The notes below the pieces were generated by a model, which was not told the origin of the DNA, ran no database searches, and saw nothing but the letters and a program-made list of their open reading frames with translations. A DNA stretch of 44,578 bases from a virus, in the IMG/VR virus record IMGVR_UViG_3300036760_000421, positions 1 through 44,578 of that record, one strand, 5' to 3'. Shown in pieces: positions 1,733 through 43,038 of the stretch; position 1 is the stretch's first letter, and every line of letters starts with the position of its first letter. The position numbers were made by a program, and so were the translations under genes.

Positions 1733-4700
1733 TTATTTGGGCATCAATCCTTTAAGCCACTCTTCAAACCGTCTCTTCTCTTCCAGTTTCTCCCATTCTG
1801 TCTTCTCGGCTTCCTTTTTACCTCGGTCTGTGGCTGCCTTAGTAACCTTCTTTGTTAAGAGCAACCAACTATCAAGTTCTGGATGCTGGACTCTAAAATC
1901 TAATCGGTTCTGCCTACTCATCAAAGGACTTATGTATGTCCTGTAAAGCCGATAGACTTCTCTTGAGGGGACTTTCGTAAAGTCTCGCGGCTCAGTAAAG
2001 ATGCCGAATTCAAACATTGCCTTATAGAAATCAGGATGCTCCATTAAGAACCAGTCGTCTTCGTAGTAAGACTCAGAGGGATGCTCTTTATACCAGTCAT
2101 CTGTAGATTTATCAGGTATCTTGTAATATTCAACATAGGTCTCAATTAAAGGAGTAGGGAAGTCTTTGCCATAAGCATCCCTTCTCAGTCTATCATCAGC
2201 ATACTCAGGATTGGATTTGAGGAAGGCTTGCCTCTGTTGTTTGCCCTCACTCGTCTCACCCTCAATCGCATCATATTGCTTATCCTGCTCTTGCCACTTA
2301 ACATCAATGCGCCAGATGGGTATTCTAGTCTCGTCAACTGGTTTTAAGGCATTATCACCCCAGATATTCTTGTCCATTCGCCAGGCATTATACTCAGGAT
2401 TATCAACACGATAAAGCATCACCTCAGCACTGGTGGAACCAATACCTTCTTTATCTTGTATCCGCATAAACTCAATATGGGCATTAACCAGCTTATCATC
2501 TACTGGATTCTCGTTTGTTCCTTTCTCAATAGCCTCAATCTTTCTTTCTGTATCCCTGTAGGTTAGGTCGTCCTCAATCATAGTAGCCTTCAGTTCAGCG
2601 ACCGCTCTATCTCTCTTTGTTAATCCATTCTCGTCTTTTATTTTATCATCCTTAAAATCAGGAGAATCCTCATCACTGAAAGATTCTATCTTGTCATAAA
2701 TTTCACGGAATTTAGGATTGGTTTTTAATTCCAAAGAGGCTATCGGAGTATCCACTTCGTCCAATGGATTGCCACTCTCATTCAGCCATTTCACAAGATT
2801 GGGATTCTTTGCTCGCAGAAGTTTGTCTTCCCAACTATTTGCTCCCCACTTATCTACTATCTCTATTCTTTCAAAGTAGGCTTTAGCAACATCTTGCGGC
2901 GGAAGATATGAAGTTACCGCACTATCGGGTATGTCGTAATCCTTAATCAATTTCTGGGCTATGTCATAGGCTTTCTGGGTCATTAACTTAGCCTTGCCCG
3001 CTAAAGCCTGCTTAGCGTTTTCCTCTGGATGAGACTTCAGCCATTCCTCTCTGGAATTTTGAGAAAGTTCGGGGTGTGTCTCCAAAAACTCCGCTTGCTT
3101 GGTTTTATCCGTGATTGCCCAATATTCACTTAGTAAGGCGAATTGTCTCTGTGATATATTTCCTAAGTAGGCTTGGTTATTTCTTTCATCAGCATCAAAG
3201 GCTTTCAATGCCTTCTCATCACCAGAGGCAATTATTTTTTGTCTTTCCTGCCATATCTTATAATTATCAACATAGGTTTTCCCCTTGTCAGGGTCAGCGT
3301 TCATAGAGATTAGTTTTACATTCGGGATGATGTTTGATTCCTCAAGACTACGGGCAGTTTCAACAATAAGTCTTACCTTTGGCGGATAGCCTTTCGCCTC
3401 AGTCAGGGTCGCCGGGTCAACGCCCTTAAATTGCGATGCTGTATCCGAGTAGAAATCTGCCCAATCATATACAGGTTTAGTCATCCCATAATAGAGATTG
3501 TCTGAGTATTTTGGTAGTCCTAATTTGGGAATGTTCTCCTTCCAGTCACCTGTATAGGTTTGGACACCCAACCCAAAGAAACTCAGGATACCAGCGGGTA
3601 TTGCACTGCTGGGTTTTTCTGCAAACGCCTCATAGGCATCCATCAAAGCCATGGGACTTATTCTATCTGCCCACTGCTGTAAGTTCTTGACATCTACCTC
3701 TTCGCCACTGTAAGTCTTTCCCGTTACATATTCAAGGAGTAGTCCAACCATGGGCGCTTCCTTACTCTTGAGGAAATTCTCTCCAACATTTAAGATATTT
3801 AATGGATACTCAGCACCCGTTGTAGTGGATTTACCCATTGCTGTCTTACCTGTAATCGGAGCCGTCACCAAGTCAAAGACTCTAGAGAAAAAGACAAAAA
3901 ACTGCTGTGCTCCACCCCAAGGGTCAATGCGTAGATTGCCGATGCGGGCTTTCCCGAAGTCGGCACTATTCCTATCCGTCTCTAAGTCCCACCAACCCAG
4001 TTGATTTCCTAATACGAGTGCCCCGCCAACTGTACCAACGAGTATTGTTGCATCTCTCCATGCCTGTTTTCTGACATAGGAATTAGACGAAAACAACTGT
4101 CTCCAACCAATAGCCCTACCCCATGCAAATCTGGGAGCATAGAGGATATTACCCAGTATTGGGGCTGCCTTCTGTAGTGGACCCAATGATGCTCTACCCG
4201 ACCAATCTGCCAACCTAGTGGCCTCGGCATCCATAATCTTCATAATATCAAAAGCCTTGCCTCGCTCTAATTTTAATTCTCCTGAGGCGTATTTCTCTCC
4301 TTCTCTCAGGGCACCTTTATAAGTATTTTCAAAAATACGCCATAAATCAGAATTGCAACCAGTAACAAAGCCGCGGTTGGACAACTTTACCCAGGGTATC
4401 TTTGCGGTCAGTTTTGGTATAAGTCTGTCCGGGAAAAGATAACCAAATTCCTCAACGCCTTTATATTGTTTTGTACCCTTTGGCATATCAGGGGGACGCA
4501 GGAAGTCCCTGCCCAACTTTGACTGCAGAGCGTCATAAATTGCATACAGTGGGTCATGAGTAATACGCACCCAAGAAGCCTCGGCACTCTTCTGGCTGAA
4601 TGTTGCCTTGAAAGCATCTACCATTGATAATACAAATTCTGTAGGATGACTAGGTATAAACGGCGCTACTTGTCTCGGGTAGGACATATCAAAAGAGGAC

Positions 4701-7700
4701 TTATTTGCCTTAATAAAACCGCCAATGTCTACTGGCGACCATGCTATCTCTTTGAGTACTCTAATAACGGCATCCCTAGCCGGTGCTGGCCACAAAGGTA
4801 TTTGTTTAATAGCATCCTCAATGGGTGCTTCATACTTAGTAACTGGCGGAGTCGGATATGCCTTCTCCCTGGCCTCCGAAACAGCAATGTCATAGGCATC
4901 CTTTGTTATTTTACCTTCCGAAAAGTCTATCGCCAGTTTAAGTTTTGCTTGGGCATATTCTACTTCCGCAGGAGTTCTAAGGTCTGATGCTATAGGCATT
5001 TCAAAGTCAGGTTCAAGGAATGTTTTATAACCAGCCGGGGTATTCTCTAATTTTCTCAGGTATTCAGCTGTTTCCTGGTCTATGGGTATAGACTCTTTAC
5101 CAGCTACAATAACTTCCGTGAATAGGTCTTCTGCTACTTTCTCCAATGGTTTCTGCTCGGAAGCCATCTTGTCTATGGATTTCAGAACTTCTGGTTGGTC
5201 ACCAAAGACACGCTGTAATCTGGTATATGCAGAACCACCCCTTACCCCTGGCTCTCTCGGTATCGCCTTGCCAGTTAGGGCATTAGTGAGGGCAGTAACA
5301 GTAGAGGCCATCTCAAAGGGTTCATCCTTTAGAACTTGATAGACTTTATTGAAGAGCACATCCCTCATTCGGTCTGTGAGGTCTGAAACATAATCAGTTT
5401 TCACAACAGGCAATTTGCCGGATAGTGTTTCGCTAATAGCCTGTTTCATTGCATCTTCTGCTGAAATACCCTCTTGAACTATAAGTTCTTGCGCTCTGAC
5501 TTTCAGTAATTCCGCTCTGCCGCTTCTTGTTTCTGTTCTTAGTTCCTTTGTTAGTTCCCAAGCATTTAGAGTAGAGGAGTCCTCAATATATTTACCAAAT
5601 AATTCTAATGTGCGAGTGACCTGAACAGGCGTTAAGGCTTTTCCGCCAGTAGGTGTTATGGCGACCTTTTCGGAAATAGGTTCTGGCAATGCTGGTAATG
5701 GTGTTTTTGCTTCAGTTGTAGCGATTTCAGTTTGCAGTTCTTTAATTGTAGTTTGAGCTTTACCAACACCCTCAATGGCTACTTTGAGCGCATCCCCGCT
5801 CTCATAACCCATCTCCGTAGCTACATCATCAAGGGCATACTCCCAGCGGACAACTTCTCTTGTAGTCTTGTATGTTTTTTCAGGCACAAACTTGCCCGCC
5901 TTCGTTGTATGTGCTTTTTCGGTAATAACTTGTGTCTCTTTACCTAGAATAGAGGCACTTGGTTCTTTACCTGTAATGTTCTGATACTGTTCCTTGCTAA
6001 GATTCCCCACCTCGCCCTTATACCAACCTGTCTTTTTAATCAGGTTCACCAGTTTAGTGGCGGGTTCAGTAGAGAGCCATTCTTTTAAACCCTCAATCTT
6101 TGCCTGCGCCTCATAAGCCGCCCTCGCTCCCCCTGGAGTCTCTTCCGCAGCCCGCCAAGTCTCTTCAATCTTGGGTGTAACGGTAAGGTCTCGGACTGGT
6201 ATCCCCTCGCTCTTTGCCCACTCAATAAACTTATTGAAGTCAGCCATAGCTTTGGGAGGTAACTCTATACCACCCTTTTCTTCAGTAATAAACTCCCTGA
6301 CAGGTTTCAGCCAGTCTCTAGTTACGGGGTCTTGAATCCATCCCTCTGCCTTCTTTTGAGCATCGGAGATAAGGGCGGCATTTTCCTTACTAACATTTAT
6401 CATCTTACCAGCCGCACCGAAGATAGATAGTGGCAAACCTTGAACCATAGAACTGATTGCCGCATTACCTATTCCAGCAAAAATGTCTTGTTTCGTATCT
6501 ACGAGTTTCATAGCAGCGTTTTGTATTGCTTGTTGAGCTACCCCAAAGACAGTAAACAAGGCTTCTGTCTCTCCAAATTGCTTTAATCCCTGTTTTAGAA
6601 CACTTTTAGCAGCGAGGTTGGCTATCTCCTTTGTGGCGGTTCTCTTAAATAAAGTCATCGCTTCTGGTTTTAATCCATTCAGCACCTTACCGATAGGTAT
6701 AAACATCAGGGCATTGCTTACGATACCAACCGCTGTTCCAAGTTTGGCAGCTTGGTCTTCTGTCGCTCCATGCGCCAGCATAAGGTCTTTATCTTCTTCA
6801 ATTTGAGCGGGAGTAAGAGCAACAATACTAGCTATAAGAGGCAGGGGGTTTGCCGTGACTGCACTAAGCCCCATCCCAGCTAGTATCGCCAGTGTCCCTG
6901 GTGCAGCGGTCGCTAGTTGATTTGCCCAATAGCTCCAATCTCTGGCTACTTCGGGATGATTTTTAATCGTATCAATAATATTACCTTGCCATTCGGGACG
7001 AGTTTCTAGTTCAGGGTGTTTACTTAACCAATCTTGGTGTTGTTGCTCATTCTGGACGTAGGTTGCACGAAATGAATCCCGAAGTCCCTTATATTTTTCG
7101 TTGTCAGCGGCAGCCTCTTGGTCAGTATAAACTAATCCTGCTTTAAGTGCCTCTTTATCACTCATCCCTGTTACTTTTGATTGTCCTGGCCTTACTTCGG
7201 GAAACAATAGAGTGGGTAAGGTGCTAACGAAAAACTGTTTCGTTTGATAGGCTATATTAGTGGCCGCAACCCTAAATGTATCCCAAATATCTTTTGCCTT
7301 ACTTTCTTCTGTCCCAAAAACCTGAGTAATCTCTTCCTCGGTGATGTCGGGGAATAACTGGGTTAAAAGAGCCTCCGTATCTTCGGTGCGCCCTATTGTC
7401 CGGAGAGTTTGACTAAATTCCAGCAGGTGAGCCTGTGCCTCAGTTATCCATCCGTACTCTTGCGAGAAAACCCTTCCAACTATCTGCCCTTCTGGCGGCT
7501 CACTTAACCATCTTAAGAGTTCCCCAATATCCTTACCTGAATATCCTGTAGGAAAGACCTTGCCAAAGACATCTTCAAGCTCAAGGGGAATCTCAGGTGC
7601 TTCTAGTTGGGTTTGTAATTCGTCCCTAGTATACTTCTTCCCTTCAGGAGAGATATAAGTCTGGTCCTGCGTAATCTCCCACTTCTCAGGAGTGATAAAA

Positions 7701-9716: not shown

Positions 9717-11008
9717 TATCTCCTCTCTCGGAACACAGGTATTCTGTCGGATGAAACGGTTTCAGGGGTGAAGTCAGACCCTATGTATCTCAGGCAGGCT
9801 AATAGGTGATACTTCTGCTCATCCTTAATCTTGTTTAATGGCTTATTACCATCTAATTCCCACATACAATTAGCCATCTCGGTAAGAAGGGAGTGCATAT
9901 CCTTAAAGACGAATAGCTTATTCAGCTCCATAAGCCCTATAATGCGGTCTATTTGGGCATTTACTTTGCTTAACTTAGGTGCGGTAATATTCCAGCCGTG
10001 TGCCGAGTAACCCTGCCTTATCTCGTCTTCCTGGGGTGACCCGCCTACTCTTCTTAAAACACTATATCCTTTAGTCAGCTCTTGAAAGGCATCTATATGT
10101 TGTGGTATAGACCTCCCCGTGCCTGGTAGATATTCCTTAAACGCAAAGAGATCTCCAGATGTAGGGTTTTGGGCCAGAAAAAGAGCGGCGGGGTTAGCGA
10201 TTCCAAAGTCATGTCCCGAATAGACAAGCCACTCCCTGGGTATCTCAAATCTATCAACCTTGCAGATTCTCTCGTTAAACTTATTATAGACTAACCAGGA
10301 GGACTCTATTTCATCGTCTTCCGCCAGTATCTCTCTGCGATAAGCGTCTAAGGACATATCGGAAGTTATGATTGATAGTCCCTCTTTACTGATAAATGGA
10401 TTATCTAAAGAGGTGAAGTGAAAGGTTTCCCATAACCCTGTCTTGTCTAATTCAGCCTTCTTGAAGAGTTTGGAGGCGTGTCTAGGGTCCTTCGCCTTAC
10501 TTACCCCAATATTGTATAAAGAGGGAGGCGTGAAACTAAATACAGCGTCTCCGTTGGTATCAAGCAACATAGGAGCACCAACTACTTCCCAAGCATCCTC
10601 ATTCATAAGTTGGTATTCGTCCAGTAACAAGAGGTCGGCGAAGTCGCCCCTCATGGTATCAGCGTTCCAGGCTGTCTTTCCCCGGATGCGGTTCTTTGTT
10701 CCAGGGTGTTCTATTAAATGCTCAACCTCATTCTTGTAAAGGTCTTTCGCCTCTATCGGTTCTTTTAGTGTCGCTGTAACCTCATACCAGAAGGCGTCTA
10801 GCTGGTCAGCTGTTGGAGTAGCATATAGGACACGGCGCCCTTTCAAAAAGGCTTCAACCGCTAAGATGGCAAGAATTACCGTCTTCCCCCCTCGTCTGCC
10901 TGCTTTAATAACCCGCCTCTTTGCCCTGCTTGCCTTTATAGCCCCCTGTATGGGATGTTTGACCGTCCCCTTAAGCCCTATTTTATATTCAACTTTCAGG
11001 GTTGTCAT
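9716..11008 (-). CDS. terL: Terminase large subunit
   Basis: This is the packaging motor ATPase and DNA-cutting nuclease. A Walker A motif GRRGGKT lies near residue 38, followed by the adenine-binding region YATPT. Walker B with catalytic acid is LLLLDEYQ near residue 130. The nuclease domain begins at about residue 265 with YSGHDFG, whose Asp fits the first metal-binding acid of the RNase H-like fold. At 430 residues it is within the usual range. It overlaps the small subunit by 20 bases and the portal start by a few. This is the only large terminase in the window, so a second head cassette would need one outside the right edge. Confidence 0.95.
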   Translation of the reverse strand: MTTLKVEYKIGLKGTVKHPIQGAIKASRAKRRVIKAGRRGGKTVILAILAVEAFLKGRRVLYATPTADQLDAFWYEVTATLKEPIEAKDLYKNEVEHLIEHPGTKNRIRGKTAWNADTMRGDFADLLLLDEYQLMNEDAWEVVGAPMLLDTNGDAVFSFTPPSLYNIGVSKAKDPRHASKLFKKAELDKTGLWETFHFTSLDNPFISKEGLSIITSDMSLDAYRREILAEDDEIESSWLVYNKFNERICKVDRFEIPREWLVYSGHDFGIANPAALFLAQNPTSGDLFAFKEYLPGTGRSIPQHIDAFQELTKGYSVLRRVGGSPQEDEIRQGYSAHGWNITAPKLSKVNAQIDRIIGLMELNKLFVFKDMHSLLTEMANCMWELDGNKPLNKIKDEQKYHLLACLRYIGSDFTPETVSSDRIPVFRERR

Positions 11009-12466: not shown

Positions 12467-12495
12467 TTGACACAGACAGTTAAGTGTGGTAGTAT
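12467..12495 (+). promoter_or_regulatory. Early promoter 1
   Basis: TTGACA (12467-12472), a 17-base spacer and TAGTAT (12490-12495) form a strong sigma70-type promoter reading into the early region. The element is repeated at 12984-13012 with the same GTGTGGTAGTATGAG core. The stretch 12288-12466 between the divergent promoters holds no gene I can support. Confidence 0.8.
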
Positions 12496-12498
12496 GAG

Positions 12499-12591
12499 GG
12501 CAAATAGACAAAGCACCTTAACAACTGAATAGCCAAAGTCCCGAAGCCAGACCACACCGTGAGCCTCCTAGGGCGCAGGTTGGCAAGGGAC
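12499..12591 (+). ncRNA. Early leader: boxA-like repeat and predicted pseudoknot
   Basis: Right after early promoter 1 lies a 22-bp element beginning GGCAAATAGACAAAGCAC (12499-12520) that recurs exactly at 13224-13245. Its end, GCACCTTAACAACTGAATA, resembles boxA/nut-type antitermination leaders. Downstream, GCCAA (12532-12536) pairs with TTGGC (12580-12584), and GTCCC (12538-12542) pairs with GGGAC (12587-12591). The order is a-b-a'-b', an H-type pseudoknot. Structure is inferred by eye. Confidence 0.45.
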
Positions 12592-12648
12592 AGGTAGCAC
12601 ACTTACCGGATGACTTCTGGGCGGGTAAGAGAGGAGCGACAAAGCCCA

Positions 12649-12840
12649 ATGAGTAACCTAACAAAGCAGCACTTTGAGGCAATTGCCACTATTATCCGCC
12701 AACATTATGAAGCCGAAGGACTAGATTTTACTAGAGAGCGGTTGGAGTGGTTAGCACTAGACTTAGCTTCATACCTTGAAAAACAAAACCCATTATTCAA
12801 TCTTAAAAAATTCCTGCTTGCCTGTGGTATAAAGGATTAA
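12649..12840 (+). CDS. Small early phage protein (63 aa)
   Basis: The protein begins MSNLTKQHFEAIATIIRQ and ends NPLFNLKKFLLACG, a pattern I recall in small conserved proteins at the start of early operons of many phages, of unknown function. It is predicted mostly helical. An in-frame ATG at 12610 would add 13 residues but has no ribosome site; 12649 has GAGAGGAG upstream, though spaced rather far. It is the first gene after early promoter 1. Confidence 0.7.
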   Translation: MSNLTKQHFEAIATIIRQHYEAEGLDFTRERLEWLALDLASYLEKQNPLFNLKKFLLACGIKD

Positions 12841-12983: not shown

Positions 12984-13012
12984 TTGACAGCTACGGATAG
13001 GTGTGGTAGTAT
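12984..13012 (+). promoter_or_regulatory. Early promoter 2
   Basis: TTGACA (12984-12989), a 17-base spacer and TAGTAT (13007-13012), followed by GAGAGCAAATGAGGAGGG, which also supplies the ribosome site of the next gene. The -10 region and surrounding bases copy early promoter 1. Between 12841 and 12983 I see no gene and no clear structure. Confidence 0.8.
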
Positions 13013-13035: not shown

Positions 13036-13188
13036 ATGACCAGAGAAGAAATCCTACAGGCTTACGAGGAGGCATTAGAGCAAGCTGCTAAAAAGTGCGA
13101 AGCGGAATGTAAGGACGCAAGGGAATGGTGTCTCAAGAAATTAAAGGAGGCAGGAGAGGAAGAAATCAAAGCCGAAACGGAGCAATAA
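13036..13188 (+). CDS. Small coiled-coil protein (50 aa)
   Basis: This starts behind GAGGAGGG at good spacing, directly downstream of early promoter 2. It is highly charged with Glu, Lys and Ala, begins MTREEILQAYEEALEQA and is predicted to be one amphipathic helix with three cysteines (KCEAECKDAREWC). No family recognised. Being first after a strong promoter, it is likely one of the most highly made early proteins. Confidence 0.6.
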   Translation: MTREEILQAYEEALEQAAKKCEAECKDAREWCLKKLKEAGEEEIKAETEQ

Positions 13189-13245
13189 AAGCTCCGTCCA
13201 CTGGTAAAGCCAGTGCTGATGATGGCAAATAGACAAAGCACCTTA
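13177..13245 (+). promoter_or_regulatory. Tandem hairpins and second copy of the boxA-like element
   Basis: ACGGAGC/GCTCCGT (13177-13197, loop of 7, spanning the stop codon of the 50-aa gene) is followed by CACTGG/CCAGTG (13199-13215), then the exact 22-bp repeat of the early leader element (13224-13245). Neither hairpin has a T tail, so control of readthrough or mRNA processing is likelier than plain termination. Confidence 0.55.
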
Positions 13246-13258
13246 GGGAGGGAAGAAA

Positions 13259-13465
13259 ATGGCACGAAAGATAGACTTTACTGTAAAATGCGTTGATTGC
13301 AGTAAGCCAGAAAGAATACACGATTATATCGGGAATTGGAAGACAGGCGATTATAGGTGCAGTAAATGCTTTGAGGTATGGTATAAAAAGCAACCGCCTA
13401 TAGAGCTTAAACTCTACGATATGATGACTAATGAACTTGTGGCAACAAGAACTTATGGTAGGTAA
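13259..13465 (+). CDS. Small zinc-ribbon protein
   Basis: This 68-residue protein has two knuckles, CVDC (about residue 11) and CSKC (about residue 35), spaced as in a zinc ribbon, with a basic N-terminus (MARKIDF). It starts behind GGGAGGGAAG. Such small ribbons are frequent in phage early regions and may bind nucleic acid or host proteins; no specific role can be read. It is followed after three bases by another Cys-rich gene. Confidence 0.75.
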   Translation: MARKIDFTVKCVDCSKPERIHDYIGNWKTGDYRCSKCFEVWYKKQPPIELKLYDMMTNELVATRTYGR

Positions 13466-14934: not shown

Positions 14935-15591
14935 ATGAAAGCGTTTCATTTTCTCAAAGACAATATGTGCGGAGGGTATGGGGATGAACCGCCCTGGAAG
15001 ATTGGGGAGGAACGAGATATTGGCGATGATAACCTTAGACTCTGTGAAAGAGGTTATCACTCTAGCCCTTCTTGGTATGACGCATTAAATTATGCGAGGG
15101 GTAATATGGCTTGCATTGTTGAGGTATCAGAGCCAATAGAGAAAGACAAGACAAAGTTTGTATCAAGAAAACGGAAGCTCATAGAAGCCCGAAATGCCGA
15201 GAAGATTTTAAGGGCTTGGGGATGTGATTGTGCAGAGAGGGCATTAAAGAAGGCGAAAGTAACGGATGAAAGAAGTTGGAACGCCATAAAGATTGCCCGC
15301 TTATTCAATGAGGGCAAAGCCACCAAAAAAGAATTAAATGTGGCTTGGGATGTGGCTAGGGATGCGGCTGGGGATGCGGCTGGGAATGCGACTAGGACTT
15401 GGGATGCGGCTAGGGATGCGGCTGGGGCTGCGGCTGGGAATGCGGCTAGAACTTGGGATGCGGCTAGGGATGCGGCTAGGGATGTGGCTTGGGATGCGGC
15501 TAGGGCTGGGGCTGCGGCTTGGGATGCCGAAGTTAAATGGCAAAAGCGAAGGCTAAATTACTATATGAAGAAATTATTTGATAGAAAATGA
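14935..15591 (+). CDS. Phage protein with Ala/Trp/Asp repeat tail (DUF7666-like N-terminus)
   Basis: The N-terminal 130 residues (KAFHFLKDN, LCERGYHSSPSWYDALNYA, ACIVEVSEP, SRKRKLIEA, CDCAERAL) match by recall a widespread phage family of unknown function related to DUF7666. From about residue 137 to 200 the chain becomes a low-complexity repeat of AWDAARDAAG-type units, probably a continuous alanine-rich helix, ending in a basic tail. The corresponding DNA is a GGGATGCGGCT-type tandem repeat. Its stop overlaps the next start as ATGA. Function unknown; homologues with different repeat lengths would be expected. Confidence 0.75.
   Translation: MKAFHFLKDNMCGGYGDEPPWKIGEERDIGDDNLRLCERGYHSSPSWYDALNYARGNMACIVEVSEPIEKDKTKFVSRKRKLIEARNAEKILRAWGCDCAERALKKAKVTDERSWNAIKIARLFNEGKATKKELNVAWDVARDAAGDAAGNATRTWDAARDAAGAAAGNAARTWDAARDAARDVAWDAARAGAAAWDAEVKWQKRRLNYYMKKLFDRK
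15343..15530 (+). repeat. GGGATGCGGCT-type tandem repeat inside a coding region
   Basis: Near-perfect short units (GGGATGCGGCTA, GGGATGCGGCTG, with GGGCTGCGGCT and ACTTGGGATGCGGCT variants) are repeated about fifteen times in steps that keep the reading frame. They encode the Asp-Ala-Ala-Arg/Gly repeats. Such arrays can change copy number by slippage or recombination. Confidence 0.85.
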
Positions 15592-15710: not shown

Positions 15711-15947
15711 ATGAAAGTCAGGTGTATGCTCTATCAAGATTGCCCCAAAACGGATTGTCCCCATTATCCCGAACATAAGCCAATCCAGTCCATAGATTAT
15801 ATCGGCGGGAAGGGGCTTGTCTGGGGGAAGACCTGCGCCCAAGAGACAAGAACCTGCGGATTAACCGAGCCGAATAGAGAATGTCGCTGCGCTAAAGTAA
15901 GTAAGAATTTTACGCAAGAATTTAAGGAAATCCCAGTATTAATATAA
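15711..15947 (+). CDS. Cys-rich hypothetical protein (78 aa)
   Basis: This starts behind GGGAGGG. Cysteines at CMLYQDCPKTDCPHY, KTCAQETRTC and ECRC suggest bound metal, possibly two zinc sites. Family not recognised. It is one of at least seven small Cys-knuckle proteins in the early region. Confidence 0.65.
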   Translation: MKVRCMLYQDCPKTDCPHYPEHKPIQSIDYIGGKGLVWGKTCAQETRTCGLTEPNRECRCAKVSKNFTQEFKEIPVLI

Positions 15948-15950
15948 GGA

Positions 15951-16030
15951 GGTGAGAATAGCCAGTGTCCAGCCGTGTGAAACGGCGGTTATCGGGAGAT
16001 ACAAAAGGGGGAAGTGTGACCGAGCTGGCT
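15951..16030 (+). ncRNA. Structured leader RNA, copy 1 of a paired motif
   Basis: An AGGAGGT sequence is followed by a predicted three-way junction. The closing stem is AGCCAG (15960-15965) with CTGGCT (16025-16030). Inside are hairpin GCCGT/ACGGC (15972-15986) and stem GGTTA/TGACC (15987-15991 with 16017-16021). The flanks TGTCC after the closing stem and ACCGAG before its return recur in the element at 16902-17013, whose closing stem has different bases. It ends nine bases before the ATG of the next gene, which has no ribosome site of its own. Confidence 0.5.
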
Positions 16031-16038
16031 AAATTAAA

Positions 16039-16248
16039 ATGGCAACTTATCAACATTGTAAAGAATGTGGAGCAGACCTTACTTGGCAAGAAGAAATAGA
16101 AGAAGGTTTGTGCCTCGCCTGTCTTGAAAAGGCGAAAGACAAAGGCGACTATACCCTGGCAGAAGCGCTTGATAAATCCGATGTCTTAGTTGCCGAACTT
16201 GAAAAGCGATATCCCGCTCAATATTTAATTGAAACAAAGGAGAAGTAA
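16039..16248 (+). CDS. Small zinc-ribbon protein (69 aa)
   Basis: CKECGAD (about residue 8) and CLACLEKA (about residue 30) form a compact zinc knuckle pair, followed by a charged helical tail. The ATG lies right after the closing stem of a folded RNA and lacks a nearby Shine-Dalgarno sequence; the closest AGGAGG is about 80 bases upstream across the fold. It ends at the start of the next gene (AAGTAAATG). Function unknown. Confidence 0.7.
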   Translation: MATYQHCKECGADLTWQEEIEEGLCLACLEKAKDKGDYTLAEALDKSDVLVAELEKRYPAQYLIETKEK

Positions 16249-16899
16249 ATGAAAGTAATCACAGTTAAGAACGCAACTATTAAAGCCTCCGATGGCAAGG
16301 AGTGGATAGAACTTATTGATACAGAAGATAAGACCCACCGAATTTTCTCATCAATCCAGCGAGTTGATGGAAGCTGGGCAAGCCTGAAGAAGGATATTGA
16401 AGTTCTCAAAGAGAAAATCGGCAACCACAACTTTGAGGGTATGAAACTGGGGCTTACCAAAGAACCCAAAGAAAAAGACGGGAAGAAATATTGGAATGTT
16501 GTGGCAGTAGATTTTAACCCCCCAGATGAACCAAACCCCGACAAGCCCAAAGCAGAATATCGGGGGAGGGATGAGGGCAAGGTTGATATGCGAACTTTCA
16601 TAATGGAAATAGGAGAAGACTGGAGGGCGGGCAAGCGAGATAAGAATGACCCACTTTGGAAGGCACGGGAAATATGGCTTATGGGCGTGGGGCAAGTAAC
16701 TGAAACAACAAAACCCGAACCGCCCAAAGAAATCTCTATCGCTGATATTAAAAAGATAAGAGATGATAATAAATGGACACTGGCGGATTGTGATAGCTTC
16801 TGCAACAAAAACAAGAAATGGAAAGTTCGTAATCTCAAAGAGCTTAATCAGGAACAGCGCAAAGAACTTATAGAATTTATTGGGGCACATCCTAAATAG
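16249..16899 (+). CDS. Probable ssDNA-binding (OB-fold-like) replication protein
   Basis: The N-terminal 110 residues (KVITVKNATIKASDGKEWIELID, THRIFSSIQ, KYWNVVAVDF) have the strand-rich pattern of OB-fold proteins and resemble by recall putative phage ssDNA-binding proteins. A Pro/Lys/Asp-rich linker follows, and a C-terminal helical domain (about 165-216, LKELNQEQRKELIEFI). It starts behind AAGGAGAAG and precedes the primase, consistent with a replication operon. The assignment is moderate: no hallmark residue proves ssDNA binding. Confidence 0.5.
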   Translation: MKVITVKNATIKASDGKEWIELIDTEDKTHRIFSSIQRVDGSWASLKKDIEVLKEKIGNHNFEGMKLGLTKEPKEKDGKKYWNVVAVDFNPPDEPNPDKPKAEYRGRDEGKVDMRTFIMEIGEDWRAGKRDKNDPLWKAREIWLMGVGQVTETTKPEPPKEISIADIKKIRDDNKWTLADCDSFCNKNKKWKVRNLKELNQEQRKELIEFIGAHPK

Positions 16900-16901
16900 A
16901 A

Positions 16902-17013
16902 AGGAGGTTTCTAACTGAATAATTGCTGGTGTCCCCTAATCGGTGCGCCAGTAGTCGTGGCTGACTAATATGGGGGTAAGAGTAACCGAGCCAGCAAGAC
17001 TGCCCCACCCCCA
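16902..17013 (+). ncRNA. Structured leader RNA, copy 2, with two alternative pairings
   Basis: AAGGAGGT is followed by a closing stem TTGCTGG (16923-16929) with CCAGCAA (16991-16997). Inside, TCCCC (16932-16936) can pair with GGGGG (16972-16976). The same G tract, as TGGGGGT (16971-16977), can instead pair perfectly with ACCCCCA (17007-17013). TGTCC and ACCGAG flank the closing stem as in copy 1 (15951-16030). Two exclusive folds upstream of the 17039 gene suggest a switch. No known riboswitch was recognised. Confidence 0.5.
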
Positions 17014-17038
17014 ATAGCCAGAATAGAAGGAGGCTTAA

Positions 17039-17299
17039 ATGGAGATACCGATACTAACAGATGAAGAGATAGAAGCAGTGCGAAAATCACTTATTGAAAC
17101 TGTAGGCAATCGCACCTCAATAGAACTTTTTAGGGGGAGGGGAATTGCAAAAAGGGCTAGAGATGACACAATAAAGAAGATTGTGAAGTGGGGGAATGAA
17201 CCCTGCCCAGGACACGAAGGTCTTTATATTACAATGCCTAAGCGGAGTTGTTCAAGATGCTGGCGGGGGCTGGAGGAGAGCGCAAATGCCGATAGATGA
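17039..17299 (+). CDS. Hypothetical protein with CxxC pair (86 aa)
   Basis: This starts behind AAGGAGGCTTAA. The N-terminal half is helical (LTDEEIEAVRKSLIETVG), the C-terminal half has Cys at CPGHEG and CSRCWRG, a possible zinc site. It overlaps the primase start by 14 bases, so the two are likely co-translated. Family not recognised; a primase partner is possible by position only. Confidence 0.6.
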   Translation: MEIPILTDEEIEAVRKSLIETVGNRTSIELFRGRGIAKRARDDTIKKIVKWGNEPCPGHEGLYITMPKRSCSRCWRGLEESANADR

Positions 17300-18137
17300 T
17301 ATAAATTTGTTGCTCTCCAAATTAAAAGGTGTTAAGAAAATAAGCACAGGATATATGGCGATGTGTCCTGCCCACAATGATACCCACAGAAGCCTATCCA
17401 TTAAAGCCGATGTTGATAACAAGGCTGTTCTTTACTGCCACGCTGGTTGCAAATTTGAGGATATCTTAAAGGCACTTGGCTTAACCAGCGCACCAACTTT
17501 CCACTTTACACCCGTGATAGATGAGACCTATGACTATACAGATGAAAATGGGAACTTACTTTATCAAGTTGTCCGCTATCACCCTAAAAACTTCAAGCAC
17601 CGCAGACCTAACGGAAAAGGATGGATATGGAACTTGAACGGAATAGAGCCAGTCCTCTATCGCCTCCCTGAAATTATTGAGGCAGTTGGCAAAGAATTGA
17701 TTTGGATTGTTGAGGGAGAGAAAGATGTTGAGACTCTGAAATCACAAAATATAATAGCAACTACAACTTCTGGCGGGGCTTCGGCGAGGTGGCTACCGCA
17801 ATACAATGAAATTCTACACGGAGCAGATATAGCCATAATACCTGATAATGACGAGGCTGGACAAGCGAGGACCCTAAGGATAGCTAAGAACCTCTATGGC
17901 TGGGCGAAGGGAATTAAAATAGTCTATCTACCGAAGGACATAAAAGACATCACGGATTGGTTTGAGCAGGGTCATACAAAAGAAGAACTCCTTGAGCAAT
18001 ATAAAGTAACTCGTCTTTTTGACATTAAAGGAACGCCCACATTAGAGGACTACCTTGACATTAAGGGTGCTATCGTGTATTATGGTGAAAAGATAAAGCG
18101 TCTATCGGGAAAGCGTAGGTCTTATGAATATAAATAG
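17286..18137 (+). CDS. DNA primase (CHC2 zinc finger + TOPRIM)
   Basis: This makes RNA primers for DNA replication. Zinc-binding residues are CPAHNDTHRS near residue 22 and CHAGC near residue 48, the CHC2 finger of bacterial-type primases. The TOPRIM domain follows: IWIVEGEKDV (about residue 138, catalytic Glu), then ADIAIIPDNDEAG (about residue 185, the DxD pair) and KDITDWFEQG. At 283 residues it lacks a helicase domain, which is probably supplied by the ATPase at 18321. I chose the ATG at 17286 because GGAGGAG precedes it, rather than the upstream in-frame ATG at 17196. Its 3' end abuts the putative origin. Confidence 0.92.
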   Translation: MPIDDINLLLSKLKGVKKISTGYMAMCPAHNDTHRSLSIKADVDNKAVLYCHAGCKFEDILKALGLTSAPTFHFTPVIDETYDYTDENGNLLYQVVRYHPKNFKHRRPNGKGWIWNLNGIEPVLYRLPEIIEAVGKELIWIVEGEKDVETLKSQNIIATTTSGGASARWLPQYNEILHGADIAIIPDNDEAGQARTLRIAKNLYGWAKGIKIVYLPKDIKDITDWFEQGHTKEELLEQYKVTRLFDIKGTPTLEDYLDIKGAIVYYGEKIKRLSGKRRSYEYK

Positions 18138-18307
18138 TATAATAATTAACTTTATCTATATTAGAGGGTGTTGCGCCAGCTATAATCCCGCAACATCCGC
18201 AACATTTTCGCCGATTTTAGCTACGAATTACCCCGTTTTCCCGCAACATTTCCGCAACATCCCGCAACATCCGCAACATCCCGCAACATCCGCAACATCC
18301 GCAACAC
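18124..18307. other. Putative replication origin: AT-rich stretch and nine iterons
   Basis: After a very AT-rich segment (18124-18165) come nine copies of CGCAACAT (the last ends in C). They start at 18189, 18198, 18242, 18253, 18263, 18272, 18282, 18291 and 18300, so seven are spaced 9-11 bp, about one helical turn. Iterons beside an AT-rich unwinding region, placed between primase and helicase-like genes, are typical of theta-type phage and plasmid origins. I see no good DnaA box. A 69-codon frame crosses it but encodes only repeat-derived sequence. Confidence 0.7.
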
Positions 18308-37191: not shown

Positions 37192-40100
37192 TTATTTAAG
37201 CCCCATCTCTTTTAACTTCTCTTCCATTTCTCGTTGTATCCGTTCAAGTTCCTTCTGTGCTTGCAGGTCTTTTCCCCCCGCTTTTTCGGTTACTTTGTCT
37301 CCATCTGTTGGAGGTTTGCCCCCAGTCTCTAGCTTGGTTCCTGTAGTTATATGAAGCCACATATCTAATTCGGGATGTTCAGCCTCAAAGTCTCTGCGTG
37401 CTTTCCCCTTGGGTAGATTCCCCCAGGTCTGATAAAGGGCATAGACTTCTTTGGTCGGGACTTTGGTAAAGTCTCTTGGCTTCCACGCATTATCGCCCAT
37501 TATCTCAGGGTCAATCATTGCTTTATAAAGGTCGGGATGTTCCATCAGGAACCAGTCATCTTCATAGCCAGCCCTGCTGACTTTATAGTATTCAACATAG
37601 GGTTCTATAAGGTTATCGGGAAGGTTATAACTATAAGCGTCAATCCGTCTCATATCGTCAACCCATTCGGGATTATCAGCCTTGAGTTTGGCAACAGCCC
37701 TATCTCTGGCCGTCAGACCTTGGGCATCTTTGACTTTATCATCCAAATAAGCGGGGGATTCCTTGTCACTATAAGATTCCAACAGGTCAAATAGCGGTCG
37801 GTTCTTAACCTTTAATTCTAGGGAAGCTATCGGGGTATCTACCTCGCCTAGTGGATTCCCACTCTCATTCAACCATTTCACAAGTTTGGGATTCTTTGCC
37901 CGCAGGAGTTTATCCTCCCAGCTATTTGCCCCCCACTTATCTACTATCTCTATTCTTTCAAAGTATGCTTCGGCAATCTCCTTTGGGGGGAGATAAGAAG
38001 CCACCGCACTATCGGGTATGTCGTAGTCCTTAATCAATTTCTGGGTTATGTCATAGGCTTTTACGGTCATTATCTTAGCTTTACCCACCAAGGCCTGTTT
38101 AGCGTTTTCCTCTGGATGAGATTTCAGCCATTCTTCCCTGGGATTCTGAGAAAGTTCGGGATGGGTCTCCAAAAACTCCGCCTGTTTGGTTTTATCCGTG
38201 ATTGACCAGTATTCATTAAGCAAAGCAAACTGCCTTTGTGAGAAATTGCCTAAGTAGGCTTGGTTGTTTCTCTCATCGGCATCAAAGGTCTTCAGTGCCT
38301 TCTCGTCACCGGAGGCTACTATCTTCTGTCTTTCCTGCCATATCTTATAATTATCAACATAGGTTTTTCCCTTGTCTGGGTCGGCATTCATAGAGATTAG
38401 TTTCACATTCGGGATAATACCAGACTCATCAAGGCTTCTAGCAGTTTCTACAATAAGTCTCACCTTTGGAGGGAAGCCCTTCGCCTCGGTTAAAGTGGCT
38501 GGGTCAACGCCCTTGAACTGTGATGCCGTATCCGAGTAGAAATCCGCCCAATCATATACAGGTTCGGTCATACCATACCAGGCATTGTCGGGGTATTTAG
38601 GTAATCCTATTTTTGAGATGTTCTGGTTCCAATCACCCGTATAGGTCTGGACACCAAGACCAAAGAAGCTCAGGATACCGGCGGGTATTACACTACTGGG
38701 TTTTTCCTTAAATGCCTCGTAGGCATCCATCAGGGCCATGGGGCTTATTCTATCTGCCCACTGCTTTAAGTTCTGGACATCTACCTTTTCGCCACTGTAG
38801 GTCTTTCCTGTCACATATTCAAGGAGAAGCCCAACCATAGGTGCTTCCTTACTCTTGAGGAAGTTCTCGGCAACATTTAAGAAATTTAGTGGATATTCTG
38901 CTCCAGTTGTGGTGGACTTACCCATCGCTGTTTTGCCTGTAATGGGAGCCGTTACCAGGTCAAAGACCCTAGAGAAAAAGACAAAGAATTGCTGTGCCCC
39001 ACCCCAGGGGTCAATGCGTAGATTGCCGATGCGGGCTTTCCCGAAGTCGGCGCTATTCCTATCCGTCTCTAAGTCCCACCAACCCAGTTGATTTCCTAAT
39101 ACGAGTGCCCCGCCAACTGTACCAACGAATATTGTTGCATCTCTCCATGCCTGTTTTCTGACATAGGAATTAGGCGAAAGCAACTGTCTCGGACCAATAG
39201 CCCTACCCCATGCAAATCTGGGAGCATAGAGGAGATTACCCAGTATTGGGGCTGCCTTCTGTAGTGGACCCAATGATGCTCTACCCGACCAATCTGCCAA
39301 CCTAGTGGCCTCGGCATCCATAATCTCCATAATATCAAAAGTCTTGCCTTGCTTTAATTTTAATTCTCCTGATGCGTATCTCTCTCCTTCTCTCAGGGCA
39401 CCTTTATAAGTATTTTCAAAAATACGCCATAAATCAGAATTGCAACCAGTAACAAAGCCACGGTTGGACAACTTTACCCAGGGTATCTTTGCGGTCAGTT
39501 TTGGTATAAGTCTGTCCGGGAAAAGATAACCAAATTCCTCAACGCCTTTATATTGTTTTGTACCCTTTGGCATATCAGGGGGACGCAGGAAGTCCCTGCC
39601 CAACTTTGACTGCAGAGCGTCATAAATTGCATACAGTGGGTCATGAGTAATACGCACCCAAGAAGCCTCGGCACTCTTCTGGCTGAATGTTGCCTTGAAA
39701 GCATCTACCATTGATAATACAAATTCTGTAGGATGACTAGGTATAAACGGCGCTACTTGTCTCGGGTAGGACATATCAAAAGAGGACTTATTTGCCTTAA
39801 TAAAACCGCCAATGTCTACTGGCGACCATGCTATCTCTTTGAGTACTCTAATAACGGCATCCCTAGCCGGTGCTGGCCACAAAGGTATTTGTTTAATAGC
39901 ATCCTCAATGGGTGCTTCATACTTAGTAACTGGCGGAGTCGGATATGCCTTCTCCCTGGCCTCCGAAACAGCAATGTCATAGGCATCCTTTGTTATTTTA
40001 CCTTCCGAAAAGTCTATCGCCAGTTTAAGTTTTGCTTGGGCATATTCTACTTCCGCAGGAGTTCTAAGGTCTGATGCTATAGGCATTTCAAAGTCAGGTT

Positions 40101-43038
40101 CAAGGAATGTTTTATAACCAGCCGGGGTATTCTCTAATTTTCTCAGGTATTCAGCTGTTTCCTGGTCTATGGGTATAGACTCTTTACCAGCTACAATAAC
40201 TTCCGTGAATAGGTCTTCTGCTACTTTCTCCAATGGTTTCTGCTCGGAAGCCATCTTGTCTATGGATTTCAGAACTTCTGGTTGGTCACCAAAGACACGC
40301 TGTAATCTGGTATATGCAGAACCACCCCTTACCCCTGGCTCTCTCGGTATCGCCTTGCCAGTTAGGGCATTAGTGAGGGCAGTAACAGTAGAGGCCATCT
40401 CAAAGGGTTCATCCTTTAGAACTTGATAGACTTTATTGAAGAGCACATCCCTCATTCGGTCTGTGAGGTCTGAAACATAATCAGTTTTCACAACAGGCAA
40501 TTTGCCGGATAGTGTTTCGCTAATAGCCTGTTTCATTGCATCTTCTGCTGAAATACCCTCTTGAACTATAAGTTCTTGCGCTCTGACTTTCAGTAATTCC
40601 GCTCTGCCGCTTCTTGTTTCTGTTCTTAGTTCCTTTGTTAGTTCCCAAGCATTTAGAGTAGAGGAGTCCTCAATATATTTACCAAATAATTCTAATGTGC
40701 GAGTGACCTGAACAGGCGTTAAGGCTTTTCCGCCAGTAGGTGTTATGGCGACCTTTTCGGAAATAGGTTCTGGCAATGCTGGTAATGGTGTTTTTGCTTC
40801 AGTTGTAGCGATTTCAGTTTGCAGTTCTTTAATTGTAGTTTGAGCTTTACCAACACCCTCAATGGCTACTTTGAGCGCATCCCCGCTCTCATAACCCATC
40901 TCCGTAGCTACATCATCAAGGGCATACTCCCAGCGGACAACTTCTCTTGTAGTCTTGTATGTTTTTTCAGGCACAAACTTGCCCGCCTTCGTTGTATGTG
41001 CTTTTTCGGTAATAACTTGTGTCTCTTTACCTAGAATAGAGGCACTTGGTTCTTTACCTGTAATGTTCTGATACTGTTCCTTGCTAAGATTCCCCACCTC
41101 GCCCTTATACCAACCTGTCTTTTTAATCAGGTTCACCAGTTTAGTGGCGGGTTCAGTAGAGAGCCATTCTTTTAAACCCTCAATCTTTGCCTGCGCCTCA
41201 TAAGCCTCTCTAACTCCCCCCGAAGCCTCTTCCACGGCCCGTAATGTCTCTTCAATCTTGGGTGTAACGGTAAGGTCTCGGACTGGTATTCCTTCCTTTC
41301 TTGCCCACTCAATAAACTTATTGAAGTCAGCCATAGCTTTGGGAGGTAACTCTATACCACCCCTTTCTTCAGTAATAAACTCCCTGATAGGTTTCAGCCA
41401 GTCTTTAGTTTGGGGGTCTTGAATCCATCCCTCTGCCTTCTTTTGAGCATCGGGGACAAGAGCAGCATTTTCCTTACTAACATTTATCATCTTACCGGCC
41501 GCACCGAAGACAGCCAGTGGCAAACCCTGAACCATAGAACTGATTGCCGCATTACCTATTCCAGCAAAAAGGTCTTGCTTCGTATCTAAGAGTTTTATAG
41601 CAGCGTTTTGTATTGCTTGTTGAGCTACCCCAAAGACAGTAAACAAGGCTTCTGTCTCGCCAAATTGCTTTAATCCCTGCTTTAGGACACTTTTAGCAGT
41701 GAGGTTGGCTATCTCCTCCGTAGCGGTTCTCTTAAATAAAGTCATCGCTTCTGGTTTTAATCCATTCAGCACCTTACCGACAGGTATAAACAACAGGGCA
41801 TTGCTTGCGATACCAACCGCTGTTCCAAGTTTGGCAGCTTGGTCTTCTGTTGCTCCATGCGCCAGCATAAGGTCTTTATCTTCTTCAATTTGAGCGGGGG
41901 CAAGAGCAGTAATACTAGCTATAAGAGGCAGGGGATTCTCCGTGACTGCACTAAGCACCATCCCAGCTAGTATCGCCAGTGTCCCTGGTGCTCCGGCCGC
42001 TAGTTGATTTGCCCAATAGCCCCAATCCCTAGCTACTTCAGGATGATTTTTAATCGTATCAATAATATTACCTTGCCATTCGGGACGAGTTTCTAGTTCA
42101 GGGTGTTTACTTAACCAATCTTGGTGTTGTTGCTCATTTTTAGTATAGGTCTGGCGATATTGGTCTCGGCTCGTCTTACTCTTCTCGTTATATGCCGCTA
42201 CCTGTTCTGGTGGGCAAGGTATATTCCGCCCAGTCCTTTGGTCCCATACTGGGTCTCCAGCCTTAATATCTCTGAACAGTAAATTTGGTAGAGTGCCAAC
42301 AAAAAACTGTTTCGTTTGATAGGCTATATTAGTGAAAGCAACCCTCGCTGTATCCCAAATATCTTTTGCCTTGCTTTCTTCTGGCACAGTTGTTGGGGCT
42401 GGTGCAAAGAACTGGGTAATCTCCTCTGGTTTCATTCCCAATCCCGAAAGCAAACTCTCGGTATCTTCCGTTCGCCCTATAGCCCAGATGGCTTGAGCAA
42501 ATTCCCGCTGGCGAGCCTCCGCTACCCAGTCTCTCTCTCCATACCATCCCCCAGTCCCCCTCAACCAAGTTAAGGTCTCTTCAATATCTTTGCCCGAATA
42601 GCCTGTGGGGAAGACCCCACCAAAGGCACTCTCAAGTTCAATATAGGGGGCATTTAATTGAGTTGTTATCTCCTCCGCGGTAAACTTCTGCCCCTTCGGA
42701 GATAGCCAGGTCTGGTCTTCTAACACTTCCCATTTCCCAGGTTCAATAGGGGCAAGGAAGTCTTCGGGTGTGATAAAACTCATGACAGGCTCGGCTCCAT
42801 TAGCACCCGGAGTCATCTTTAGCAACCAACCTTCATCTAACTTAAAGGGTTCACCAGTCTCGGTTGTGAGCCCTAGCCCTACGACTTGTTCAGGAGTAAA
42901 GAACTCAGGAACCTGGGGAAGGGCAAGCCTAGCCTCTTTCTGCTTTGTCATCTCTTCGGTAAGCAGGGGCATTAACTTGCGTGTTTCCTCTAAAGATGTC
43001 CCGTAAGATTCCAACAGTTCAGAAATGCCGTTGCTCAT
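37192..43038 (-). CDS. Giant virion protein 2 (1948 aa)
   Basis: This is a homologue of giant protein 1 with the same order: hydrophobic Ala/Gly region near residues 330-420, shared core, LPD38-like WSGRASLG...GLGVQTY region, charged HPE-rich tail ending in a coiled coil (DLQAQKELERIQREMEEKL). Its core (39461-41205) is identical to giant 1 in nucleotide sequence as far as I can see, while the first 300 residues are strongly diverged and it lacks about 110 residues near the C-terminal third. In the 35-kb circular interpretation only its C-terminal half belongs with the tail genes. Probable internal/ejection protein. Confidence 0.75.
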   Translation of the reverse strand: MSNGISELLESYGTSLEETRKLMPLLTEEMTKQKEARLALPQVPEFFTPEQVVGLGLTTETGEPFKLDEGWLLKMTPGANGAEPVMSFITPEDFLAPIEPGKWEVLEDQTWLSPKGQKFTAEEITTQLNAPYIELESAFGGVFPTGYSGKDIEETLTWLRGTGGWYGERDWVAEARQREFAQAIWAIGRTEDTESLLSGLGMKPEEITQFFAPAPTTVPEESKAKDIWDTARVAFTNIAYQTKQFFVGTLPNLLFRDIKAGDPVWDQRTGRNIPCPPEQVAAYNEKSKTSRDQYRQTYTKNEQQHQDWLSKHPELETRPEWQGNIIDTIKNHPEVARDWGYWANQLAAGAPGTLAILAGMVLSAVTENPLPLIASITALAPAQIEEDKDLMLAHGATEDQAAKLGTAVGIASNALLFIPVGKVLNGLKPEAMTLFKRTATEEIANLTAKSVLKQGLKQFGETEALFTVFGVAQQAIQNAAIKLLDTKQDLFAGIGNAAISSMVQGLPLAVFGAAGKMINVSKENAALVPDAQKKAEGWIQDPQTKDWLKPIREFITEERGGIELPPKAMADFNKFIEWARKEGIPVRDLTVTPKIEETLRAVEEASGGVREAYEAQAKIEGLKEWLSTEPATKLVNLIKKTGWYKGEVGNLSKEQYQNITGKEPSASILGKETQVITEKAHTTKAGKFVPEKTYKTTREVVRWEYALDDVATEMGYESGDALKVAIEGVGKAQTTIKELQTEIATTEAKTPLPALPEPISEKVAITPTGGKALTPVQVTRTLELFGKYIEDSSTLNAWELTKELRTETRSGRAELLKVRAQELIVQEGISAEDAMKQAISETLSGKLPVVKTDYVSDLTDRMRDVLFNKVYQVLKDEPFEMASTVTALTNALTGKAIPREPGVRGGSAYTRLQRVFGDQPEVLKSIDKMASEQKPLEKVAEDLFTEVIVAGKESIPIDQETAEYLRKLENTPAGYKTFLEPDFEMPIASDLRTPAEVEYAQAKLKLAIDFSEGKITKDAYDIAVSEAREKAYPTPPVTKYEAPIEDAIKQIPLWPAPARDAVIRVLKEIAWSPVDIGGFIKANKSSFDMSYPRQVAPFIPSHPTEFVLSMVDAFKATFSQKSAEASWVRITHDPLYAIYDALQSKLGRDFLRPPDMPKGTKQYKGVEEFGYLFPDRLIPKLTAKIPWVKLSNRGFVTGCNSDLWRIFENTYKGALREGERYASGELKLKQGKTFDIMEIMDAEATRLADWSGRASLGPLQKAAPILGNLLYAPRFAWGRAIGPRQLLSPNSYVRKQAWRDATIFVGTVGGALVLGNQLGWWDLETDRNSADFGKARIGNLRIDPWGGAQQFFVFFSRVFDLVTAPITGKTAMGKSTTTGAEYPLNFLNVAENFLKSKEAPMVGLLLEYVTGKTYSGEKVDVQNLKQWADRISPMALMDAYEAFKEKPSSVIPAGILSFFGLGVQTYTGDWNQNISKIGLPKYPDNAWYGMTEPVYDWADFYSDTASQFKGVDPATLTEAKGFPPKVRLIVETARSLDESGIIPNVKLISMNADPDKGKTYVDNYKIWQERQKIVASGDEKALKTFDADERNNQAYLGNFSQRQFALLNEYWSITDKTKQAEFLETHPELSQNPREEWLKSHPEENAKQALVGKAKIMTVKAYDITQKLIKDYDIPDSAVASYLPPKEIAEAYFERIEIVDKWGANSWEDKLLRAKNPKLVKWLNESGNPLGEVDTPIASLELKVKNRPLFDLLESYSDKESPAYLDDKVKDAQGLTARDRAVAKLKADNPEWVDDMRRIDAYSYNLPDNLIEPYVEYYKVSRAGYEDDWFLMEHPDLYKAMIDPEIMGDNAWKPRDFTKVPTKEVYALYQTWGNLPKGKARRDFEAEHPELDMWLHITTGTKLETGGKPPTDGDKVTEKAGGKDLQAQKELERIQREMEEKLKEMGLK
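39461..41205. repeat. 1.74-kb long direct repeat, copy 2
   Basis: Same orientation and content as 4374-6118, offset 35,087 bp. On both sides the similarity declines gradually, then the flanks diverge, consistent with homologous recombination inside a conserved gene or with assembly joining at a shared segment. Confidence 0.95.

Follow-up and report, generated by a model that had tools for sequence, protein, structure and literature searches.

What is a structured piece of RNA doing in two separate gaps of one phage operon, and are the two pieces copies of the same element? The window (the whole stretch of DNA that was analysed) corresponds to a single virus record of IMG/VR, 44,578 bases long, and encodes a terminase, a capsid protein, a portal-like protein, an exonuclease and a primase. 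The phage is a bacterial virus. Its structural genes occupy the minus strand, and a replication-type operon runs along the plus strand from about 12.5 kb. Two near-identical promoter-like regions (12467-12495 and 12984-13012, TTGACA-N17-TAGTAT with TG) are found upstream of the early genes, and a minus-strand promoter-like site at 12287-12259 matches the consensus at 12/12 positions. These bacterial-type promoter matches contrast with the terminase (9719-11008, minus strand), which is 62.5% identical over 189 aa to a 'gene transfer agent terminase' of the Methanosarcina virus MetMV (L430, 9155-9730). The window also carries a 4.7-kb direct repeat (2585-7311 and 37678-42383, 91.5% identical), which falls within two giant minus-strand open reading frames of 2073 and 1948 aa.

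Both elements are located in the plus-strand operon, in the gaps 15946-16038 (copy 1) and 16900-17038 (copy 2). The order is gene 15711-15947, copy 1, gene 16039-16248, gene 16249-16899, copy 2, gene 17039-17299 and the primase gene (17196-18137). Gene 16039 encodes a zinc-ribbon-like protein of 69 aa. Gene 16249 encodes a protein of 216 aa that matches no Pfam or PHROGs family; a structure prediction made without an alignment is of poor confidence, and its one weak relative is located among replication genes. The original prediction placed a structured RNA twice in early gene leaders. The structure is supported by the analysis below, but the gaps are internal to the operon and are not transcript leaders. 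Elsewhere in this part of the window, a gene matching DUF7666 carries in-frame 12-nt repeats (15338-15534), and CCGCAACAT is repeated at 18185-18307, directly 3' of the primase gene, in an iteron-like arrangement that is possibly a replication origin.

Copy 1 starts with a Shine-Dalgarno (SD) sequence, AAGGAGGT (15946-15953), which overlaps the stop codon of the upstream gene. It is followed by the 5' strand of the closing helix P1, TAGCCAG (15959-15965), the conserved TGTCC (15966-15970), a hairpin GCCGT-GTGAA-ACGGC (15972-15986), which is absent from copy 2, the conserved block GGGGGAAGTGTGACCGAG (16007-16024), which includes ACCGAG (16019-16024), and the 3' strand of P1, CTGGCTA (16025-16031). 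In copy 2, the SD sequence SD1, AAAGGAGGT (16900-16908), has no ordinary start codon downstream. The 5' strand of P1 is TTGCTGG (16923-16929), followed by TGTCC (16930-16934), the conserved block GGGGGTAAGAGTAACCGAG (16972-16990) with ACCGAG (16985-16990), and the 3' strand CCAGCAA (16991-16997). Further downstream are ACCCCC (17007-17012), which has no counterpart in copy 1, and a second SD sequence, SD2 (17027-17033), the ordinary ribosome-binding site of gene 17039-17299. All these features are on the plus strand. The closing stem, TGTCC and ACCGAG described in the original prediction are therefore all present in the sequence of both gaps. The AGGAGGT that it also listed as shared occurs in both, but it is an SD sequence whose distance to the stem downstream (5 nt in copy 1, 14 nt in copy 2) puts it out of register with the other features.

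The resemblance is closer than was first noted. Both gaps contain GTGTCC, then about 37 nt that are mostly dissimilar, and then GGG[GT]AAG[TA]GT[GA]ACCGAGC, all within the closing helix, and the 3' block is identical at 16/19 positions (GGGGGAAGTGTGACCGAGC vs GGGGTAAGAGTAACCGAGC). In both copies, TGTCC lies just inside the helix on the 5' side and ACCGAG just inside it on the 3' side. The length from TGTCC to ACCGAG is nearly equal (48 and 50 nt), with mostly dissimilar intervening sequence.

P1 is fully paired in both copies and consists of seven Watson-Crick pairs plus one U-G pair, which in copy 1 is contributed by U15966. Three of the seven pairs differ between the copies on both sides (AT/TA, CG/TA and AT/GC) and none on one side only, which bears out the covariation proposed for the closing stem. 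Sliding the helix by 1-3 columns abolishes all double changes, and six random changes in 14 bases would keep pairing at 7/7 with P = 4.4e-4. A shuffle control of the stem covariation, which has little power with two sequences, gave 61/500. The unshuffled window contains three pairs of 7-bp stems that have all 11 inner bases in common. Two of them derive from the 4.7-kb repeat, and copies 1 and 2 are the sole such pair outside it, while any stem pair with 11 common inner bases was present in 7/2000 dinucleotide-shuffled windows. The tested features were picked after being seen, so these chance figures are somewhat generous. Taken in isolation, both elements fold better than shuffled sequences (z of -2.84 and -2.30). 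The shared structure of the two copies is likely to be real, and this grade stops short of proof because the features were chosen after the fact and come from only two sequences.

The same numbers bear on a chance likeness of two unrelated gaps, or on decayed small genes that once followed good SD sequences. The local similarity of the gaps by sequence only is modest (p 0.008), and short frames with near-start codons (ATA, CTG) follow both SD sequences. The stem tests (7/2000 shuffles, three double changes, P = 4.4e-4) make either origin improbable. A coding remnant was rejected on further grounds: there is no ATG, GTG or TTG at SD spacing, the reading frame of GTGTCC and that of the 3' block change from one copy to the other, the frames of the 5' block differ, and the frame in copy 2 stops inside the element.

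Within P1, the computed pair probabilities of copy 1 are 0.82-1.0. The behavior of copy 2 depends on how far the RNA extends. Its P1 is predicted to be firm in RNA ending at 17000, as during transcription, and to be rivalled by an alternative fold once ACCCCC has been transcribed. In the alternative fold, TTGCTGGTG pairs with CGCCAGTAG and GGGGGT with ACCCCC. With the RNA ending at 17008, P1 has a probability of 0.83, compared with 0.21 when the end is at 17015; it is 0 for 16900-17060 and about 0.9 for 16800-17200, and the free-energy gap between the two folds varies with the stretch from about 0.3 to 4 kcal/mol. The two mutually exclusive partners proposed for the G tract of copy 2 are thus confirmed in silico, and they are predicted in this copy only.

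The interior of P1 may also hold a pseudoknot. Its candidate strands are UCC/GGA and UCGG/CCGA in copy 1, where the TCC of TGTCC could pair with GGA at 16010-16012, and UCCCC/GGGGG and UCGGU/ACCGA in copy 2, where TCCCC (16932-16936) can pair with GGGGG (16972-16976). These pairings would account for most of the conserved bases. The complement that they need arises in both copies in 5% of shuffles, and the putative strand TCGG lies 26 nt from TGTCC in copy 1 vs 10 nt in copy 2. Because of these two observations, we infer a pseudoknot core in both copies as a possible, weakly supported feature.

The best clue to function, overlooked in the original prediction, is that the AGGAGGT of copy 1 is the only good ribosome-binding site available to gene 16039. 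SD strength was expressed as the pairing energy with the 16S tail and calculated for 24 early-strand starts, most of which have a good SD sequence within 22 nt. Gene 16039 has none near its start: its local SD is the second weakest of the 24 (-3.7 kcal/mol). Of all sites measured, the strongest (-13.5 kcal/mol) is the SD sequence that precedes copy 1. It lies 86 nt from the AUG, a distance that would shrink to about 13 nt if P1 formed. When P1 is blocked in copy 1, the predicted accessibility of the AUG drops from 0.84-0.94 to about 0.39. The annotated ATG of gene 16039 is probably correct because it leaves both CxxC pairs in the protein and because the gene runs directly up to gene 16249. Neither feature of this layout, the lack of a usable SD at normal spacing or a strong upstream SD with a helix that restores near-functional spacing, is repeated in copy 2. 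There, SD1 is strong (-12.3 kcal/mol), no start codon closely follows P1, and gene 17039 has its own SD2 (-11.7 kcal/mol).

The element is probably a translation-control RNA. In our main reading, to which we give a probability of about 0.5, one cis-acting structured domain is present twice between genes of a polycistronic replication mRNA and controls translation initiation of the next gene, with copy 1 acting as a split ribosome-binding site. P1 would enclose a conserved core (UGUCC, GGGG, AAGWGUR and ACCGAG). In copy 1, it would loop out 73 nt of the stretch that separates the strong SD from the AUG of gene 16039 and thereby shorten the spacing from 86 to about 13 nt, so that output would depend on P1 formation, which a protein or another signal could stabilise through the conserved core. 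In copy 2, P1 and the alternative fold would compete ahead of a gene with its own SD, and the role would be modulatory. Copy 1 is read as a split site because a near SD is missing, the far SD is strong, AUG accessibility drops when P1 is blocked, and the layout is that of T4 genes 25 and 38. Several findings weigh against this reading. The covariation rests on two sequences, and no homologue is present in the collections searched; bridging cannot account for copy 2; a 13-nt spacing with a helix exceeds the usual optimum; and the SD of copy 1 is predicted to be unpaired only about one third of the time.

The conserved core exceeds what a bridge needs and, we think, serves recognition by something. 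This leads to a protein-binding operator, in which a protein of the operon would bind both cores and repress or stabilise translation of two gene pairs. Such an operator may overlap with the split-site reading. The copies flank gene 16249 and precede the primase pair, the weak relative of the 216-aa protein sits among replication genes, and T4 offers precedents in the autoregulation of gp32 and gp43 (PMC3014915). No RNA-binding protein has been identified in the operon, however, gene 16249 being without a Pfam or PHROGs match, and an operator is possible but on the unlikely side.

Recognition could also be by a small molecule. A metabolite riboswitch of a new class, whose ligand would stabilise P1 and the core, fits the closed helix, the conserved internal loops, the possible pseudoknot and the competing folds of copy 2. 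It is very unlikely, since the alternative fold is predicted in copy 2 only, neither copy adjoins a metabolic gene, and there are no homologues, before metabolic genes or elsewhere, in the collections searched. An aptamer conserved across genomes with compensatory changes would mark a riboswitch, and here there are two copies in one genome. A hybrid of these ideas, a signal-responsive split ribosome-binding site of a new class, would place an aptamer-like domain between SD and AUG, make its folding dependent on a ligand or a phage protein, and use it twice in the operon; we consider it doubtful.

Relatives of the element were sought in several ways. None of the 4227 Rfam families matched copy 1 or copy 2 at E up to 10 (15900-17060), in agreement with the original prediction, which could assign it to no known riboswitch, ribozyme or leader, and a fast-filter Rfam search of the whole window returned no riboswitch or leader family at gathering score. 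Scans with exact patterns covered 2.9 million viral contigs and 84,980 genomes. Among the matches listed for the viral contigs, none had TGTCC, ACCGAG and a 7-bp stem correctly placed, and no match in the genome contigs did. Blastn searches produced no true match, either among phages (with the region and with each element as query) or among plasmids (with the region). The element was not found by descriptor or covariance model near relatives, taken from the viral contigs, of the primase (78 loci, up to 45% identity), of TerL (6 loci, 55-66%) or of the 216-aa gene (1 weak locus), and the exonuclease as a query had no relative. The covariance model found no third copy in the window.

Individual candidates were examined and rejected. 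A covariance-model match in MetMV (15.7 bits, E 0.07) has an unpaired stem, and the stretch reads as an open Cys-rich frame. The leader at 12500-12649 is weakly similar to both copies, but the similarity does not reach significance once the several comparisons are allowed for. The ACCGAG block has a likeness to the D-arm of class II tRNAs, and one pattern match, L146, is a real tRNA-Ser; ARAGORN, however, predicts no tRNA anywhere in the window. The original prediction had named a lack of further homologues with compensatory changes as evidence against it, and this is currently the outcome of the covariance-model, descriptor and pattern searches. The element thus appears to be an orphan of one phage within the collections searched, where relatives of the phage are distant and its nearest records are possibly absent.

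A known structured RNA is found in the same operon. A type II hammerhead ribozyme (RF02276) at 13170-13234 on the plus strand scores 38.4 bits (gathering 37, E 2e-4 window-wide) and escaped the fast-filter search at gathering score. It overlaps the end and stop codon of one gene, and the ATG at 13259 follows its GUC (13196-13198) by about 60 nt. A 21-nt sequence, GCAAATAGACAAAGCACCTTA, is identical at 12500-12520, right after the promoter-like region 12467-12495, and at 13225-13245, at the 3' end of the hammerhead. If active, the hammerhead would mean that structured RNA is put to use in the early operon of this phage.

RNase III sites exist in the early genes of T7. Copies 1 and 2 could by analogy be mRNA processing sites, that is, targets of a host RNase or undescribed self-cleaving ribozymes that cut the polycistronic mRNA between genes. 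Their intergenic position and the hammerhead in the same operon speak for such sites. A typical RNase III site has longer and less interrupted helices than these, no known ribozyme family is matched, and the missing SD at gene 16039 is left unexplained; cleavage at the two copies therefore seems rather improbable.

Most known leader switches act by hiding the SD. The assembly of a ribosome-binding site whose two halves lie apart, by the folding of a large domain, has a simple precedent in T4. Should the split-site reading be confirmed, copy 1 would show that phages give such sites a conserved core, which may be recognisable, and employ it more than once in one operon. For the present, a twice-used structured RNA that looks real and has no relatives in the collections searched is unproven. 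The absence of relatives indicates that a structured RNA of an uncultured phage can fall outside current family libraries.

Among known RNAs, the type II hammerhead (RF02276) shares the operon with the two copies, but both lack the hammerhead core bases (CUGANGA...GAAA) and Rfam is negative there, so a hammerhead identity was rejected. Orphan riboswitch candidates and other candidate structured RNAs also have a covarying helix around conserved loops upstream of genes, but the element described here is represented by two copies in one genome only. The leader pseudoknot of T4-type gene 32 (PMC3014915) is likewise a structured RNA in a phage replication mRNA, and a parallel to this operator would give one protein control over two sites. 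Unlike in gene 32, no sequence relation is shown, the pseudoknot is only possible, and no binding protein has been identified. The closest parallel to the split-site reading is found in T4 genes 25 and 38, where a structure reduces an SD-AUG spacing of 27 nt to 11 nt in one case and of 22 nt to 5 nt in the other, and destabilising it lowers translation (PMC3014915). As in these genes, the structure of copy 1 lies between SD and AUG and would shorten an unusable spacing. Unlike the T4 sites, with their gaps of 22-27 nt, copy 1 would loop out 73 nt with a conserved core, a domain about three times larger, and the phage carries this domain twice, with the second copy preceding a gene that has an SD of its own.
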